From the NCBI GenBank assembly GCA_937139415.1, contig CAKZPS010000006.1, forward strand, positions 1 to 64,000: 64,000 bases of DNA, read 5' to 3'. Both the position numbers and the translations under genes were made by a program. Each line of letters begins with the position of its first letter. Positions within the stretch are counted from its first letter, which is position 1. Below, one piece after another: positions 19,162 through 44,208 of the stretch. The stretch comes from an uncultured bacterium (GTDB lineage Bacteria > Atribacterota > Atribacteria > Atribacterales > Caldatribacteriaceae). Under the pieces are notes generated by a model. The model was not told where the DNA came from. It saw only the letters and a program-made list of their open reading frames with translations, and searched no databases.

Positions 19162-19298
19162 TGAGGGGGAGTCGATTCTCAGGGTAACTCACGTTCCGAT
19201 CTCTGAGCGCTTCGAGAATTTTTCCGTTCGATTATGTAGGAGTACCGTACCAAGGGAAAATAGGGGAAGTACTGGGATAGAGGGCAGGGGTAAAAATA

Positions 19299-19315
19299 TG
19301 GCACGTTTTTTTATC
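19299..19315 (+). promoter_or_regulatory. TGGCA-N5-TTTTATC element ahead of the lipoprotein/cheA block
   Basis: TGGCACGTTTTTTTATC shares both ends and exact length with elements at 25543-25559 (before flgB) and 43094-43110 (before flhB). The left half matches the sigma54 -24 box (TGGCAC). The right half lies where the -12 GC should be, but reads TTTAT. It ends 29 bases before the lipoprotein ATG. A variant sigma54 promoter is my inference. Confidence 0.4.
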
Positions 19316-19344
19316 CGAGAAGGATTAAAAAAGTAGGGAATGGG

Positions 19345-20294: not shown

Positions 20295-20319
20295 AAGAAG
20301 AGAAAAAACGGGGAGGATG

Positions 20320-22365
20320 ATGAGGGTGGTAGAAGGTTTTGACCTCAATCGCTATGTGGGTGTGTTCTTGGAAGAGGTTGAAGAACACATTGAGAATTTA
20401 GAAGAAAATTTAGTTCAATTAGAAAGAGATCCCGATAATAAAGATTTGGTACAATCCATTTTTCGCTCTTTTCATACCATTAAGGGTTCTTCGAGTTCCA
20501 TGGGATTCCGGAAGATGATGGAATTATCCCACCTCATGGAGAATCTCCTTGACGGGGTCCGAAGTGGGAGTATTGTGGTTACCCCCTCTTTGGTAGACAC
20601 CTTGCTTCGAGGGGTGGACCTTTTGAAGAACATGAAAGACGTGATCGCCTTAGAGGGGAAAGAGCCGGAAATTGATACCCAGAGTATCATGGAAAATTTG
20701 AAGCTTTTCTTGCAACGTACCGAAAGCGCTCCTTCTCCTCAGTCCTCGCAGGAGATGCCGAGCGAGGAGCAATCGCAAGAGGTAAAAGCGTCCGTATTCT
20801 ATGGTACGTATTTAGTCACCGTCTATTTAACCTTAGAATGTTCCATGAAAGGCGTGCGTTCTTACCTTGTGATTAATCGTTTGCAAGAAAACGGTGTGGA
20901 AGTCATTGCCACGATCCCTCCCCTTTCTGATTTAGAGAGTGAGCGTTTTGGACAGAGCTTTGAAGTTATCGTCCGAACCTCGTTGGGTGAGGAAGAGCTC
21001 AAAAAGATGGTGGAATCTGTTGCCGAAGTGGAACGGGCAGAGATTAGAATCCAGGAGAAAGAAGTCGAAGAGGAGAAGGAGGAGAAGGGAGAAGAACGTG
21101 AGAGTACCATTTCGTCAGTATCGGAAACTCAAGAGGCGAAGAAAACTGCAAAGGGCTTGAAAAAGACTGTTCGTGTCGATGTAGAGCGATTGGATGCTCT
21201 TCTCAATCTGGTAGGGGAATTAGTCATCGATCGGGCGCGGTTGGGAGATATCATTCAACGGTTGCGTGACTGTAAGGAACTCTCTTACTTTCGCGATCTC
21301 CTCACCGACACCAATACCCACATTGGACGGATCATTAACGAGCTGCAGATGGAAATCATGAAAGCCCGTATGCTCCCCTTAGCAGAAGTATTCAATCGCT
21401 TTCCCCGCATGGTCCGAGATATCGCCCGGAATTCCGGTAAAGAAGTCGATTTCGTCATTCAGGGTGAAGAAACCGAGTTAGACCGTTCGCTCTTAGAAGA
21501 AATTACCGACCCCTTGATTCACCTGTTGCGAAATGCCGTAGATCATGGCATTGAAAGTAGAGAAGAGCGTATTGCTCAGGGAAAATCTCCCCGGGGTCGA
21601 GTGCTGTTGCGGGCTTATCAGGAGGAAAACTCGGTGGTCATCATGGTTCAGGACGATGGGCGGGGTCTCGATATCGAGAAAATAAAAAACAAAGCCTTGC
21701 GTTTGGGTCTCATCTCGCAAGAGGAATTGGAGAAGATGACCGAACGGGAAATCATGGAGTTCATTTTCTACCCCGGCTTTTCCACCAATGAAGCGGTAAC
21801 GGATGTATCGGGCCGGGGGGTAGGCATGGATGTAGTCAGGAGAAATATGGAGCGGGTTAACGGACAAGTGCGGATCGAGAGCGAGCGTGGTAAGGGAACC
21901 ACCTTTTATCTCCGACTCCCCTTGACTCTGGCCATTATTCGGGCACTGCTTGTCAAGGTGAACGAAGGGATTTATTCTATACCTCTTGCCGATGTAGTTG
22001 AGATTGAAAAGGTGAAGAGCGAGAATACTTATTGGGTGAATAAAACCCTTACCGCTCTTTTCCGAGGCAAGGTATTAACGCTCTTGCGGTTACAGGATTT
22101 ACTGCAATCGAAAAAGGCGGAATACTTTGAAGGGGAAACCGTCCCGGAAACTCTCTATACCGTGGTGGTCAATGCCGCCCGAACTATGGCAGGATTGGTG
22201 GTGGATGAAATTATTGGTGAGCAAGAGATCGTAATTAAGTCTTTGGGTTCTTACATCGGTGATGTGCGTGGCTTGAGTGGAGCAACCATTTTAGGCGATG
22301 GGCGAGTGTCGTTGATCGTTGATGTACCGAGTTTACTCTGGAAAAATTTTCAAATGGGGGGTTAA
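20320..22365 (+). CDS. cheA: Chemotaxis histidine kinase CheA
   Basis: The cytoplasmic kinase that relays receptor signals to CheY and CheB. Domain order is complete: HPt with phospho-His in FRSFHTIKGSS (His52), a P2-like CheY-docking domain at roughly 160-245, a charged Glu/Lys linker, the P3 dimerisation helix (RLDALLNLVGELVIDRARL), P4 ATPase with HLLRNAVDHGIE and GRGVGMDVV, and a C-terminal CheW-like P5 domain. GGGGAGG stands just ahead of tandem ATG codons, and I use the second. cheY follows closely. No cheW is present in the window, so coupling to receptors needs a copy elsewhere. Confidence 0.97.
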   Translation: MRVVEGFDLNRYVGVFLEEVEEHIENLEENLVQLERDPDNKDLVQSIFRSFHTIKGSSSSMGFRKMMELSHLMENLLDGVRSGSIVVTPSLVDTLLRGVDLLKNMKDVIALEGKEPEIDTQSIMENLKLFLQRTESAPSPQSSQEMPSEEQSQEVKASVFYGTYLVTVYLTLECSMKGVRSYLVINRLQENGVEVIATIPPLSDLESERFGQSFEVIVRTSLGEEELKKMVESVAEVERAEIRIQEKEVEEEKEEKGEERESTISSVSETQEAKKTAKGLKKTVRVDVERLDALLNLVGELVIDRARLGDIIQRLRDCKELSYFRDLLTDTNTHIGRIINELQMEIMKARMLPLAEVFNRFPRMVRDIARNSGKEVDFVIQGEETELDRSLLEEITDPLIHLLRNAVDHGIESREERIAQGKSPRGRVLLRAYQEENSVVIMVQDDGRGLDIEKIKNKALRLGLISQEELEKMTEREIMEFIFYPGFSTNEAVTDVSGRGVGMDVVRRNMERVNGQVRIESERGKGTTFYLRLPLTLAIIRALLVKVNEGIYSIPLADVVEIEKVKSENTYWVNKTLTALFRGKVLTLLRLQDLLQSKKAEYFEGETVPETLYTVVVNAARTMAGLVVDEIIGEQEIVIKSLGSYIGDVRGLSGATILGDGRVSLIVDVPSLLWKNFQMGG

Positions 22366-22371
22366 TGGATC

Positions 22372-22737
22372 ATGCCGGGCCGAATTATGATCGTTGACGA
22401 TGCTGCTTTTATGCGCATGATGCTCAAAGATATTTTGGTCAAAAATGGGTATGAAGTAGTTGCCGAAGCATCCAATGGAAAAGAGGCGGTATTAAAGTAC
22501 GAGGAAACCAAACCGGATCTCGTTACCATGGATATTACCATGCCGGAAATGGATGGAATTTCGGCGGTGAAAGAGATTCGCAAGAAAGACCCCCAAGCGC
22601 GCATTGTTATGTGTAGCGCTATGGGTCAACAGGCGATGGTCGTAGATGCCATTCAAGCAGGAGCACGCGACTTCATCGTTAAGCCTTTTAAGCCAGATCG
22701 GGTGATTGAAGCGGTAAAAAAGGTCTTAGGTAATTGA
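22372..22737 (+). CDS. cheY: Chemotaxis response regulator CheY
   Basis: A single-domain receiver of 121 residues that carries the phosphoryl signal from CheA to the flagellar switch (FliM and FliY, both encoded here). Active-site residues are present: Asp9 and Asp10, phospho-acceptor Asp54 in TMDITMPEMDG, Ser82, and Lys104 in IVKPFKP. It starts seven bases after the cheA stop and is surely co-transcribed. Confidence 0.95.
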   Translation: MPGRIMIVDDAAFMRMMLKDILVKNGYEVVAEASNGKEAVLKYEETKPDLVTMDITMPEMDGISAVKEIRKKDPQARIVMCSAMGQQAMVVDAIQAGARDFIVKPFKPDRVIEAVKKVLGN

Positions 22738-22747
22738 CAAGGGTGTG

Positions 22748-24193
22748 ATGAAGGTTTTTGAAGACCTTACCCCCTTTTTGAAAGTATTACGCCGTCGCTG
22801 GCAATTACCCTGCTTGGCTCTTTGGCGGAAGGGCGAAAAAAGATTCTGCTATAGTGGTTTTTCTCCTTTGAAAAAAGAGCTCGAGGGGCATCTCGAGAGC
22901 AATTCCCTCTTGGGGAATAAGATCTCGTATTTCAAAACTCGTCGAGGGAGATCGATGGTCGTGAGTTGGGAAGAACTTGACGACGAGTATTATCTCCTGT
23001 GGGGGAGATGGGATGGAGAAAATGAACCTGTGGAGAAACTGAACGTATCTTCTCTCAGTCATGAGGTGAAGTCTTTCTTGAAATGGCAAGCCTTTTCCAT
23101 TTCCTCTTTTATCGATCAGTTTCCCTTGGGGTTGGTCGTTGCATCATTAGAGAGCGGAAAAATTCTTCACTGGAATCCACCCATGGAATTAATGACTGGG
23201 TGGTCGGCGCAGGAAGTGAAAGGGAAAGCTCTGCGGGATTTTTTCGATTTTTCTCCCCAAGAGGTGGAAGAAATTCGGCAAAACCTCCTTTTCGGCGAAA
23301 CGCTCTTTTTGCGGAACTTTCGCATCATCAATCGGTTCTCGGAAGAGCGGTTGCTCAATTTTCATTTCTTCCCATGGCGCCAAGAGAAGATCATTCGCAC
23401 CGTAGCCATCGTCCAAGATGTGACCGAAAAGGCGCGCTGGGGGGAAAGTGTACGACAGATGGAGAAGCTTTCCAGTATCGGTCGATTTATCTCGAGTGTT
23501 GCTCACGAGATTAATAACCCCCTGGCAGTTATTTACGGGTATACCCAGATGCTCCTTCCCCGCTTGGCAAAGAGTAACTCCTGTGAGACCTGCAAAGTGG
23601 TAGAGAAGGGTTTGGAAAAGATTGAAAAAGAAGCAGAACACTGTGGAAAAATTATCCAGTACATGGTGGACTTTTCTCGTCCTATGGTATTGCAAAAAGA
23701 GCGTGTGAATCTTAATACCCTCATTGAGGAGAGTCTTGCCTTGGTGGACTTTTACCTCGATGAGCAGAGGAAAGTAGAACTTTCCCTTGAGGAAAACTTG
23801 CCTCTCGTGGTGGTTGATGCCACCCGGATCAAGCAGGTGTTTATCAATTTGGCAAAGAATGCCTTTGAGGCGATGGAAGGAGGAGGAACTCTTTCTATTA
23901 CCACCCGCTTTCAGTTGTTGACTCCTCGTTTGGGGGAAGAAGGAGGGAGAACGAAAGGGAAGACGCCTTTTGTAGAAATTATTTTTGCCGATACCGGTAA
24001 GGGTATACCTCCTGAGAAGCTGAATCGAATTTTTGAACCCTTTTTTTCCACCAAATTTAAAGGGGCAGGGTTAGGCCTTTCTATTTCTTACGGTATTATC
24101 CGCGCCCATCGTGGATTTATCGAAGTAGACTCGGTGGAAGGAAAAGGGACCCAGTTCCGTGTCTTTCTTCCGGTGGAGGAGAGCAATGCTTAA
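22748..24193 (+). CDS. PAS-domain sensor histidine kinase, NtrB/AtoS type
   Basis: A soluble sensor kinase of 481 residues with no membrane segment. An N-terminal region without a clear family comes first, then a PAS domain at roughly 120-235 (LGLVVASLESGKILHWNPPME), HisKA with phospho-His253 in VAHEINNPLAVIYGY, and an ATPase domain (LAKNAFEAMEGGG, DTGKGIPPE, GAGLGLSIS). The next gene, rpoN, overlaps its end. In other flagellar systems such a kinase (FleS/FlgS type) works with a sigma54 activator to time hook genes. No NtrC-like partner is present in the window. Confidence 0.9.
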   Translation: MKVFEDLTPFLKVLRRRWQLPCLALWRKGEKRFCYSGFSPLKKELEGHLESNSLLGNKISYFKTRRGRSMVVSWEELDDEYYLLWGRWDGENEPVEKLNVSSLSHEVKSFLKWQAFSISSFIDQFPLGLVVASLESGKILHWNPPMELMTGWSAQEVKGKALRDFFDFSPQEVEEIRQNLLFGETLFLRNFRIINRFSEERLLNFHFFPWRQEKIIRTVAIVQDVTEKARWGESVRQMEKLSSIGRFISSVAHEINNPLAVIYGYTQMLLPRLAKSNSCETCKVVEKGLEKIEKEAEHCGKIIQYMVDFSRPMVLQKERVNLNTLIEESLALVDFYLDEQRKVELSLEENLPLVVVDATRIKQVFINLAKNAFEAMEGGGTLSITTRFQLLTPRLGEEGGRTKGKTPFVEIIFADTGKGIPPEKLNRIFEPFFSTKFKGAGLGLSISYGIIRAHRGFIEVDSVEGKGTQFRVFLPVEESNA

Positions 24194-25514
24194 ACCCCAA
24201 TTGCGCCTCCATCTTACCCAACGTCAAAGAATGGTACCCAAAATGATCGTTGCCAGCGAACTCATGATGATGAATGTAGCGCAGCTTGAGGAGCGGTTGG
24301 AGCGATTGATAGAAGAAAATCCTTTGGTTGAAATCCAGGAAAATACTCGCTGTTATGGTTGTGGAGAAGTTATCGTTGTATATCTGGAACGGTGTCCCCG
24401 TTGTGGTCGGTTACTTCATCCTCAAGAGGTACAGGAATTTGCCTGGGAAGAAATGGCCTTTCTCGGAAAGAAGCGGAATTGGAGAGAAATTCTCGAGGAG
24501 GAAGTAGAAACCTTTGTCGAACTCACCGAAGAAGAAGAGAAAGTTTTCCGTCTCCTCTTGATGCATCTTGATAACTCGGGTTTTTTGAAGGTGAGCACAA
24601 AGCGACTTGCCTTTTCCCTCCAGCTTGAAGAAGACAAACTTCTCGTGGTGATTGAGCGATTACGCCAAGCCGGTTTTACAGGTTTTGCCGCTTCGGATGC
24701 CTTGGAATTCTTAATTATCCAGGCCCTACAATTGGGTCTCCTCCAGGGAGACCTTGAAGTATTGCGACGGGAAATCGTGAACCAACCAGAAAAATTTGAG
24801 AAAATTCTCGCTCCTCATCGTGACCAACTCTTTTTTTCTCCTGCTCAGCTCTTTGAAAGTACGCTCTTGGGGCAGGAGAGGGGAGAGTTACCAGAAGAAA
24901 ATTCGGTCGTGCCCGATGCAGAAATCGTAGAGGTCACGAAAAGTGATTTTGAGGTAGTGCTTTACACCCCTTCTTCATTGAATTTGAATCTCAATGAGGA
25001 GGTTTTGAGTATCTATTATGCCCAGAGAAAGAAAATGCCGGCCAAGGAACTCTCCTTTTGGCAAGAAAAAATTCAGGAAGCTAAAGAGGTGATTTCTTGC
25101 CTATCTTACCGCCATAAGCTCCTTTTACAAGTGTTAGAATACATCGTGATGCGGGAGAGCGATTTTCTCACCCATGGCGTTCGTCACTTTGTTCCTTTGC
25201 GGCAAAGAGATATTGCTGAAGCGTTGGGTATTAGTATTAGTGCCGTTTGTCAAATCTTGTGTAATAAGTACCTCCGTTTTCCCGACGGAGTGGTACGAAG
25301 TGTCAAATTCTTTTTCGATGCTTCCTATCCGGTCAAAGAAGCCATCCGAAAGATTATCGATACTGAGGATCCTCGACATCCGCTTTCCGATCGAGAGATT
25401 GTTGCCGAGCTCCAAAAATACGGTTTTCCCATTGCCCGTCGAACCTGCGCTCTCTATCGTGAAGAGCTCGGTATTTTGCCCTCCCACCTTCGCAGAAAAT
25501 TTGTGTCACGATAG
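24186..25514 (+). CDS. rpoN: RNA polymerase sigma-54 factor with an inserted zinc ribbon
   Basis: Sigma54, which directs polymerase to -24/-12 promoters opened by AAA+ activators. ATG 24186 overlaps the kinase gene and has GGAGGAG ahead. Region I is recognisable but low in Gln (LKPQLRLHLTQRQRM to EENPLVEI). Directly after it, at 56-73, stands CYGCG...CPRCG, a CxxC-x10-CxxC pattern that looks like a zinc ribbon and is not part of typical RpoN. The core-binding region, helix-turn-helix (RDIAEALGISISAVCQ) and RpoN box ARRTCALYRE (417-426; consensus ARRTVAKYRE) follow. Its place just ahead of flgB suggests control of flagellar genes. Confidence 0.92.
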   Translation: MLKPQLRLHLTQRQRMVPKMIVASELMMMNVAQLEERLERLIEENPLVEIQENTRCYGCGEVIVVYLERCPRCGRLLHPQEVQEFAWEEMAFLGKKRNWREILEEEVETFVELTEEEEKVFRLLLMHLDNSGFLKVSTKRLAFSLQLEEDKLLVVIERLRQAGFTGFAASDALEFLIIQALQLGLLQGDLEVLRREIVNQPEKFEKILAPHRDQLFFSPAQLFESTLLGQERGELPEENSVVPDAEIVEVTKSDFEVVLYTPSSLNLNLNEEVLSIYYAQRKKMPAKELSFWQEKIQEAKEVISCLSYRHKLLLQVLEYIVMRESDFLTHGVRHFVPLRQRDIAEALGISISAVCQILCNKYLRFPDGVVRSVKFFFDASYPVKEAIRKIIDTEDPRHPLSDREIVAELQKYGFPIARRTCALYREELGILPSHLRRKFVSR

Positions 25515-25542
25515 AGAAAAGAATCTTTTTTCTTCCCCCTTT

Positions 25543-25559
25543 TGGCAAAATATTTTATC
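25543..25559 (+). promoter_or_regulatory. TGGCA-N5-TTTTATC element ahead of flgB
   Basis: TGGCAAAATATTTTATC lies 40 bases before the flgB ATG. It matches the elements at 19299-19315 and 43094-43110 in length and at both ends. No sigma70 or sigma28 match is apparent in the same gap, so it is the best promoter candidate for the main flagellar block. Confidence 0.45.
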
Positions 25560-25598
25560 CTCACAAAGAGGAACATTCTTATCTTGAGGAGGTATGGC

Positions 25599-42328: not shown

Positions 42329-43093
42329 ATGGATTTTCTCTTCGGTTCTTTTCCTCAATTTCTCCTCGTGTGGGTGAGGGTTTTAGGACTTTTTTTAACC
42401 GCTCCCATTTTCAATAGTCGGATTGTCCCTCCTCTTGTGAAGATCGGTTTCTCTTTCTTCCTTGCGATGATCGTTTTTCCCACTCTCACTCTGAGTTTCC
42501 GTGAGCCGAGCGTCTTGGGAACCTATTTTTTGACCTTGACGAGCGAACTTTTGCTCGGCCTTGCCTTAGGGTTTGTGACCAATTTGGTTTTTTCCGCCCT
42601 GCAAATTGCTGGCGAGGTGATCGATTTTCAAATCGGTTTCAGTTACGTGAACGTGGTCGATCCGCTTTCCAATTTGGGTGCATCGGTTATGGGGCAATTC
42701 TATTTTGTGGTCGCCCTTCTTTATTACTTAGGCATTGGAGGGCATCATCTCACCTTACAGGGCCTTGCATATTCATTCCGGGTTATTCCCCTGGGAACTT
42801 TTGCCGTGCGATCTACTATGTTTCCCGCATTTCTTGTGCTCTTTGGCGAGGTGATGCTTGTAGCTTTGCAACTTGGGGCACCAATCATGGCAGCTCTCTT
42901 TTTGGCCAACCTCACCTTAGCTATTCTCTCTCGAGTTGTTCCCCAGATGAACGTGTTCGTGGTGGGATTACCGCTCAATGTGGGGGTAGGGTTGTTTTTG
43001 AGCCTCATGACCCTTCCCTACCTTTTTCCCCTCTTAGAGAAATTTGTGGAACTTTTTGTTCGGGGTTTCTTCCAGGTTTTTGTCCCTCGGTAA
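42329..43093 (+). CDS. fliR: Flagellar export gate protein FliR
   Basis: A multi-helix subunit that completes the FliPQR channel, 254 residues. Motifs include FLTAPIFNSRIVPPLVKIGF, GLALGFVTNLVFSALQIAGE and the loop VVDPLSNLGASVMGQFYFVV. It ends 44 bases before flhB; that gap holds the TGGCA-N5-TTTTATC element. Confidence 0.96.
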   Translation: MDFLFGSFPQFLLVWVRVLGLFLTAPIFNSRIVPPLVKIGFSFFLAMIVFPTLTLSFREPSVLGTYFLTLTSELLLGLALGFVTNLVFSALQIAGEVIDFQIGFSYVNVVDPLSNLGASVMGQFYFVVALLYYLGIGGHHLTLQGLAYSFRVIPLGTFAVRSTMFPAFLVLFGEVMLVALQLGAPIMAALFLANLTLAILSRVVPQMNVFVVGLPLNVGVGLFLSLMTLPYLFPLLEKFVELFVRGFFQVFVPR

Positions 43094-43110
43094 TGGCATA
43101 AATTTTTATC
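43094..43110 (+). promoter_or_regulatory. TGGCA-N5-TTTTATC element ahead of flhB
   Basis: TGGCATAAATTTTTATC begins right after the fliR stop and ends 27 bases before the flhB start. It repeats the elements at 19299-19315 and 25543-25559. It could be an internal promoter serving flhB-flhA, the chemotaxis genes and fliA. Confidence 0.4.
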
Positions 43111-43137
43111 TTAGAAGGTGGAGAAAGGTGATGTCTC

Positions 43138-44208
43138 GTGCCCTTGCAAGAGAAGACCGAAGCGCCGACACCGCGTAAGAGGGAGGAACTACGGAAGAAA
43201 GGACAAGTTCCCCTTAGTGTCGACTTTGCTAGCGGTTTTCATTTTTTGGTGCTATTTGTGGGAACGGGGATTCTTTTCCCTACCTTGTGGCAGGGGGCGC
43301 TCCGTTTCACCCGGATGATGTGGACGGAACCGCTACCTTCTTCGGATACGCTTACCTGGGCTTTGGAAATAGGAGAGAGGAGTGTGGTTTCGGTTGTGCG
43401 TCTCGTTGCCCCAATCGCGCTTCTCAGTTTGGGAATTGGGGTTTTTTTGGGGTTTTTGCAGACCGGTTTTGTTATCTCTCTGGAGAGATTAAAACCAAAG
43501 TTCGATTACGTAAACCCTATACGGGGTTTGGAGCGGCTTTTTTCCTTACGCATTGGAGTGGAGTTTCTCAAAGTGTCCTTGAAGATTGGTTTGGGTGTTT
43601 TCATTGCTTATACCGTGTTACGGAATAGCTTTCCTCTTTTGACCAATCTTACCGAAATGGAGATACACGGAGCGTTACAAACGGTAGGGGTACTTTCACG
43701 TCGCTTAGGACTCACCTTAGGCGGTCTCTTTTTAGGAGTGGGTTTCTTTGACCTCTTTTACCAACGCTTCGAATACGAGCGGAACATTCGCATGACCCGC
43801 GAGGAACTCAAAGAGGAGTATAAGCGAACCGAAGGGGATCCGGTCATCCGCTCGCGCATTCGGGCGAGGCAACGAGAAATTGCCCGTCGCCGCATGATGC
43901 AGGAAGTGCCCAAAGCACAGGTGGTGGTGACCAATCCGGTTCATATCGCCTGTGCGCTTCGCTACGAGAGGGGTAAAATGCGCGCTCCGATTTTGGTGGC
44001 CAAAGGGCAGAGATTGATCGCGGAGAAGATTAAAGAAATTGCCCGCCAACACGGTATACCTATTGTAGAGAATCGGAAGGTGGCACGGGAGCTCTTTAAG
44101 CATTGTGAGATCGGTCAGGAAATTCCCGGTTTCCTCTATCGGGCGGTTGCGGAAATATTAGCCTTCGTGTATCGCCTCAACCAAAGGGTAAAGCGAGGGA
44201 GAGTATGA
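43138..44208 (+). CDS. flhB: Flagellar export switch protein FlhB
   Basis: A membrane protein that switches export from hook to filament substrates when its cytoplasmic domain self-cleaves. It starts KTEAPTPRKREELRKKGQVP after GTG 43138, the family N-terminus, and has four helices. The cleavage motif, normally NPTH, is NPVH at 266-269; the essential Asn-Pro is kept. Length 356 is standard. flhA overlaps its stop. Confidence 0.95.
   Translation: MPLQEKTEAPTPRKREELRKKGQVPLSVDFASGFHFLVLFVGTGILFPTLWQGALRFTRMMWTEPLPSSDTLTWALEIGERSVVSVVRLVAPIALLSLGIGVFLGFLQTGFVISLERLKPKFDYVNPIRGLERLFSLRIGVEFLKVSLKIGLGVFIAYTVLRNSFPLLTNLTEMEIHGALQTVGVLSRRLGLTLGGLFLGVGFFDLFYQRFEYERNIRMTREELKEEYKRTEGDPVIRSRIRARQREIARRRMMQEVPKAQVVVTNPVHIACALRYERGKMRAPILVAKGQRLIAEKIKEIARQHGIPIVENRKVARELFKHCEIGQEIPGFLYRAVAEILAFVYRLNQRVKRGRV

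Follow-up and report, generated by a model that had tools for sequence, protein, structure and literature searches.

The sigma54 (RpoN) family is defined by three consecutive domains (PF00309-PF04963-PF04552), and work on sigma54 takes both the −24/−12 promoter and the residue R383 to be highly conserved. The GC at −14/−13 is read in the closed complex by R383, H377 and S379, and the −24 element by the arginine pair R455/R456 (PMC9770992). Cryo-EM has shown that activators pull the N terminus of sigma54 into the pore of their hexamer, where only helix 1 of region I is unfolded; what halts this unfolding is stated as unknown (PMC9770992, PMC12054792), and it has been reported that activators do not translocate continuously (PMC12054792). 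Region I is connected to the RII-finger by the N-terminal part of region II, which is not resolved in the known structures (PMC10786286). In Helicobacter, RpoN serves a flagellar regulon within the FlgS-FlgR-RpoN circuit, and the chaperone FlgZ (HP0958; PF02591), a separate coiled-coil protein with a CxxC-x18-26-CxxC zinc ribbon that acts in trans, relies on its CxxC motifs in stabilising RpoN (PMC3372290).

The rpoN gene described here belongs to an uncultured bacterium of the order Atribacterales and lies in a stretch of 64,000 nucleotides, which is called the window throughout. The encoded protein is the sole one with a Sigma54_DBD domain in the genome, and its gene is preceded by chemotaxis and signal transduction genes:

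20317 to 22365, forward strand: cheA, in the gene neighbourhood of rpoN
22372 to 22737, forward strand: cheY-like receiver protein, in the same neighbourhood
22745 to 24193, forward strand: PAS-HisKA-HATPase histidine kinase, overlapping rpoN by 8 bp and adjoining it in all complete relatives
24186 to 25514, forward strand: rpoN (sigma54), 442 aa from an ATG start, with the Pfam domains AID, CBD and DBD

An alternative GTG start of rpoN at 24159 is also open. In the window the operon begins with a small lipoprotein ORF and has the order orf-cheA-cheY-HK-rpoN; in three other families the order activator-orf-cheA-cheY-HK-rpoN-flgB was found. The relatives compared include Candidatus Caldatribacterium and Atribacteria MAGs. 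A single full AAA+ activator is encoded in the genome; it is of the receiver-AAA+ type and carries the sequence GSFTGA. An activator with G[AS]FTGA is present in most rpoN-positive genomes of the order, some rpoN-positive drafts giving no match, and in none of those lacking rpoN, in which at most an activator homologue was detected and a GAFTGA-type motif was not found. Several genera of family f3 (G015, G017-G024) have neither rpoN nor a GAFTGA activator, a joint loss of the circuit. This arrangement is similar to that of FlgS, FlgR and RpoN in Helicobacter (PMC3372290), and the kinase and the response regulator are the likely input. Taken with the flagellar regulon, the gene content suggests a sigma54 dedicated to flagella and chemotaxis that would be served by a single FlgR/NtrC-like activator and would share with its family the requirement for an AAA+ protein.

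The three Pfam domains are found in order and above their cut-offs: Sigma54_AID at residues 6-50 (36.3 bits), Sigma54_CBD from residue 91 (43.2 bits) and Sigma54_DBD at 291-438 (114.7 bits). The NCBI equivalog model TIGR02395 aligns over its full length with 198 bits (E 2e-58), below its curated cut-off of 277 bits, which indicates a divergent RpoN. The segments relevant to this work are the following:

24201 to 24335, forward strand: region I, the activator-interacting domain, aa 6-50, with P18 (equivalent to P17) and M16 (equivalent to M15) kept
24351 to 24404, forward strand: C4 zinc-ribbon motif, C56-x2-C59-x10-C70-x2-C73, followed by the invariant G74-R75
24405 to 24479, forward strand: remainder of region II, aa 74-98, near neutral
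25236 to 25256, forward strand: recognition segment of the HTH, aa 351-357 (I-S-A-V-C-Q-I), with Q356 in place of R383 and C355 in place of S382
25434 to 25463, forward strand: RpoN box, aa 417-426 (ARRTCALYRE), with R418/R419 kept and L423 in place of Lys

Judged by position, the C-terminal part of aa 74-98 would be the site of the RII-finger. Across the clade the equivalents of P17 and R336 are kept, and that of M15 in most members; since P17 and R336 are retained, the machinery for activation and inhibition seems to be preserved. Two further cysteines are invariant in the clade at positions where standard RpoN proteins usually have Ser or Ala: C305 in the ELH, near R336 (25098-25100), and C355 in the HTH, beside Q356 (25248-25250).

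A preliminary description of this locus had called attention to Cys56, 59, 70 and 73 as a CxxC-x10-CxxC motif between region I and the core-binding domain. The motif is present (C56 is encoded at 24351-24353 and C73 at 24402-24404), and its location agrees with the Pfam borders, the AID ending at residue 50 and the CBD starting at 91. The same description had proposed to follow the cysteines across relatives: all four, and the Gly-Arg pair behind them, are invariant in the 13 complete RpoN proteins of Atribacterales, which represent four families. A widely sampled set of 49 standard RpoN proteins contains no example with the four cysteines; given this contrast between 13/13 and 0/49, the motif is not a product of chance. 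Ordinary RpoN proteins occur in other families of the same phylum, among the examples searched or fetched. A fourteenth rpoN of the order, from OP9-77CS (G011; L050/L013), has a frameshift just behind the ribbon with all four Cys present, and its split is either an assembly error or real.

The ribbon had been regarded as inserted, although replacement is the better word. Region II is 46-48 aa long in the clade compared with a mean of 61 (25-115) in standard RpoN, and its mean net charge is −0.6 instead of −13.4. Given that region II is shortened and near neutral and that the protein has not become longer, the ribbon takes the place of the N-terminal, flexible part of region II, that is, of most of this acidic region. 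Region I, in turn, had been described as poor in glutamine; the direction of this difference is correct and its size is mild, with 3 Gln in residues 6-50, a clade mean of 4.2, and a mean of 6.0 with a range of 1-11 in standard RpoN. Region I is rich in Met in the clade.

At the sequence level, conservation and profile comparisons speak strongly for the module being a C4 zinc ribbon, and from these profiles we infer that it contains zinc. Zinc-ribbon Pfam profiles give weak matches in 11 of 12 ribbon-bearing members taken across lineages; DZR matches 11 of the 12 with a best E of 2e-4, and for this short motif the window member scores 17.6 bits, where the cut-off is 27.3. Among sequences with a solved structure the C4 motif of RadA comes closest (E 0.009), with an identical x10 spacing; the N-terminal motif of RadA/Sms follows the pattern CxxCG...Y..xCPxCG, although this DNA repair ATPase is otherwise unrelated to RpoN. 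AlphaFold2, run on the full RpoN with 5 alignment rows and on residues 30-111 with 4, places beta stretches around both knuckles at a pLDDT of about 45-65, values that go with such shallow alignments. With Foldseek the full model retrieved known sigma54 structures as its only significant matches, and the low-confidence model of the ribbon fragment gave nothing significant. The open-licence papers searched yielded no account of an RpoN with an internal zinc ribbon.

The preliminary description knew of no such module in standard RpoN, which agrees with the literature that was searched; similar ribbons nevertheless exist in other bacterial families. Using a profile of the N-terminal part of RpoN, followed by searches around the genomes thus detected, two CxxC motifs were found at the same place in RpoN proteins of nine families outside the phylum (f22; f83, f254, f255 and f257; f127, f212 and f252; f208). 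Matches to this profile are bimodal, as ribbon bearers align over its full length and nearly all others end with region I. As in Atribacterales, the two CxxC motifs come right after the NPxLE that ends region I; unlike in Atribacterales, the loop has 7 to 9 residues (x7-x9) rather than 10, the acidic region II is kept, and so is R383. The ribbon is hence common to several lineages and not unique to this genome. In a tree of the CBD and DBD, from which the ribbon was left out, the Atribacterales clade sits on a long, unresolved branch. Families f11 and f253, with RpoN proteins devoid of the ribbon, are placed among the ribbon bearers, and a tree constrained to hold all ribbon bearers together with these two families reaches a better likelihood and is not rejected (p-AU 0.70); a single origin of the ribbon with two losses, in f11 and f253, is thus possible. 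Six genomes of family f83 (G267, G391-G395) have two RpoN-like matches each, both fitting the ribbon profile, which suggests ribbon-bearing RpoN paralogues.

The second difference, which goes beyond the ribbon of the preliminary description and is new, concerns R383 and a matching change of the promoter. At the position of R383, Gln is present in 13/13 Atribacterales proteins and Arg in the 69 others, that is, the 49 standard ones and 20 other ribbon bearers; for this reason the window RpoN is a variant of sigma54 and not a standard member. HTH positions neighbouring R383 are also changed in Atribacterales. In the RpoN box, Lys (49/49 standard proteins) is replaced by Leu in 13/13, and R418 and R419, the readers of the −24 element, are invariant. 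The ribbon and the promoter switch can be separated from each other, given that R383 is kept in the other ribbon lineages.

The canonical consensus TGGCAYN5TTGCW is not enriched genome-wide (115 matches, compared with 134 in a reversed control). After this result the region upstream of flgB was inspected directly, and TTGGCA-N5-TTTTATCC, or a close form of it, was found there in ten genomes of the order. When aligned on the TGGC at −24, this sequence keeps the −24 element and the canonical spacing, has TA in place of GC at −14/−13, and carries a conserved CC at −11/−10. Three copies in the window precede genes or operons:

19298 to 19317, forward strand: variant −24/−12 promoter ATGGCACGTTTTTTTATCCG, 47 bp before the lipoprotein ORF that heads orf-cheA-cheY-HK-rpoN
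25542 to 25561, forward strand: variant −24/−12 promoter TTGGCAAAATATTTTATCCT, 57 bp before flgB, conserved there in 10 genomes
43093 to 43112, forward strand: variant −24/−12 promoter ATGGCATAAATTTTTATCTT, 45 bp before the flhB-like gene at 43138, the same in G002, G003 and G006

With at most one mismatch the window contains four matches against 0.18 expected, a number reached by none of 100 shuffles; three are these, 45-57 bp before operon or gene starts, and the fourth lies inside fliG. The exact form TGGCAN6TTTATCC occurs twice in the genome, both times in the rpoN locus. In relatives the motif is also found before the cheA operon and before flgF-, flhB-, fliD- and chemoreceptor (MCP)-like genes, names that were read from translations. 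The base counts were taken from 22 sites that had been gathered using the motif, so that they describe it and are not an independent test. Allowing two mismatches, 130 matches are found genome-wide compared with 80 in the reversed control, an excess that is only moderate. Single matches are not proof, given that genomes without rpoN contain the exact 18-mer too, in most cases as another, repeated sequence, TGGCATGAGGRTTTATCC. This repeat occurs in the rpoN-less genomes G015, G017, G020, G024 and others (genus g8).

From these data, a re-tuned −12 recognition by the Atribacterales sigma54, which would use the variant promoters, appears very likely; in this sample of RpoN proteins the changed specificity seems to be confined to Atribacterales. 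The promoter at 19298-19317 probably drives the operon that contains rpoN, which would amount to autoregulation. Another factor that shares the flagellar regulon might read TTGGCA-N5-TTTTATCC instead of sigma54. We hold this to be quite unlikely, as the motif shares its −24 half and its spacing with sigma54 promoters, the core bases that differ are the ones touched by the altered contact residues, and the sites are located about 40-65 bp before the start codons of flagellar operons.

The reading that we favour, with a probability of roughly 0.6, is a flagellar sigma54 variant that combines re-tuned −12 recognition with a structural zinc knob, possibly acting as a stop for activator threading. 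According to this proposal the acidic, flexible part of region II was swapped for a small C4 ribbon directly behind region I, the fold starting 5-6 residues after it. The ribbon would most likely bind zinc permanently and form a rigid, nearly uncharged knob on the surface of RNA polymerase, between the peptide gripped by the activator and the RII-finger. The helix that reads −12 would be re-tuned through the change of R383 to Gln and of its neighbours, so that promoters take the form TTGGCA-N5-TTTTATCC and not TTGGCAC-N5-TTGCA. A limit on the travel of the chain into the activator pore, which would also keep region I near the promoter fork, is proposed because the N terminus, once drawn into the AAA+ pore by the activator, is unfolded in part only. 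This last element is tentative, somewhat less likely than a plain structural spacer, and is suggested by the position of the ribbon; standard sigma54 proteins work with no ribbon at all, and activators that do not translocate continuously (PMC12054792) may have no need of a stop. A bolder version, in which a mechanical threading stop is joined to a change from GC to TA at −12 through Gln and its neighbours, so that this orthogonal sigma54 should ignore canonical promoters, is rather doubtful.

The structural role that we assign to the ribbon could be more modest. A zinc-pinned fold may simply replace a disordered acidic linker for the sake of stability and leave the activator response unaffected, a reading with somewhat less than even chances. 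No part of sigma54 is less conserved than region II, which also withstands shortening (PMC10786286); the ribbon itself is a short and compact, nearly neutral element that may have been lost in f11 and f253. Some members of the ribbon clade come from hot habitats. The strict conservation in four families of the order and at the same place in nine others suggests more than a spacer, as does the invariant GR after the last Cys. A surface that docks onto DNA or RNA polymerase close to the upstream fork, for instance at the CC of −11/−10, and thereby aids promoter opening would agree with the proximity of region I, which sits at the −12/−11 fork (PMC9770992), with the invariant Arg75, with the removal of acidic charge and with the conservation of that CC in the variant promoter. 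Nonetheless, the other ribbon lineages keep both R383 and an acidic region II, which shows that a ribbon can be present without the new type of promoter, and docking is unlikely, less probable than either a stop or a spacer.

The preliminary description had also considered that the ribbon might alter the response of the factor to activators, or to redox state and metal. Given where the ribbon lies, the factor may plausibly respond differently to its activator. Switching of sigma54 activity by a ribbon that senses redox state or metal is unlikely, indeed the least probable of the readings considered here. Accessible CxxC pairs are oxidisable in principle, and C305 and C355 are invariant as well; yet no sensor signature is apparent, and the likely input of the circuit is already provided by a kinase and a response regulator. 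The idea is left without support, since the invariance of all four ligands and the spread of the ribbon over several lineages fit a structural site at least as well. Hardly more probable is a fused version of the FlgZ chaperone that would guard RpoN from proteolysis. It draws on the dependence of RpoN stability on the CxxC motifs of Helicobacter FlgZ (PMC3372290), on the presence of both FlgZ and the ribbon in flagellar circuits, and on weak matches of PF02591 to 3 of the 12 ribbon members; the ribbon differs, however, in its x10 instead of x18-26 spacing and in being embedded in RpoN. Replacement of FlgZ by such a fusion is ruled out, as a separate FlgZ homologue persists in nearly all genomes of the order, those without rpoN included.

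A folded knob at the place where the activator pulls on sigma54 is a natural experiment on how this pulling is limited. A joint change of the −24/−12 promoter and of R383 within one clade would amount to a natural specificity switch in the sigma54 family, and to our knowledge no switch of this type was known earlier. Orthogonal expression could profit from such a switch, and so could the search for sigma54 regulons that are missed when the consensus is used. Together, the ribbon and the changed promoter make two open questions of sigma54 biology testable.
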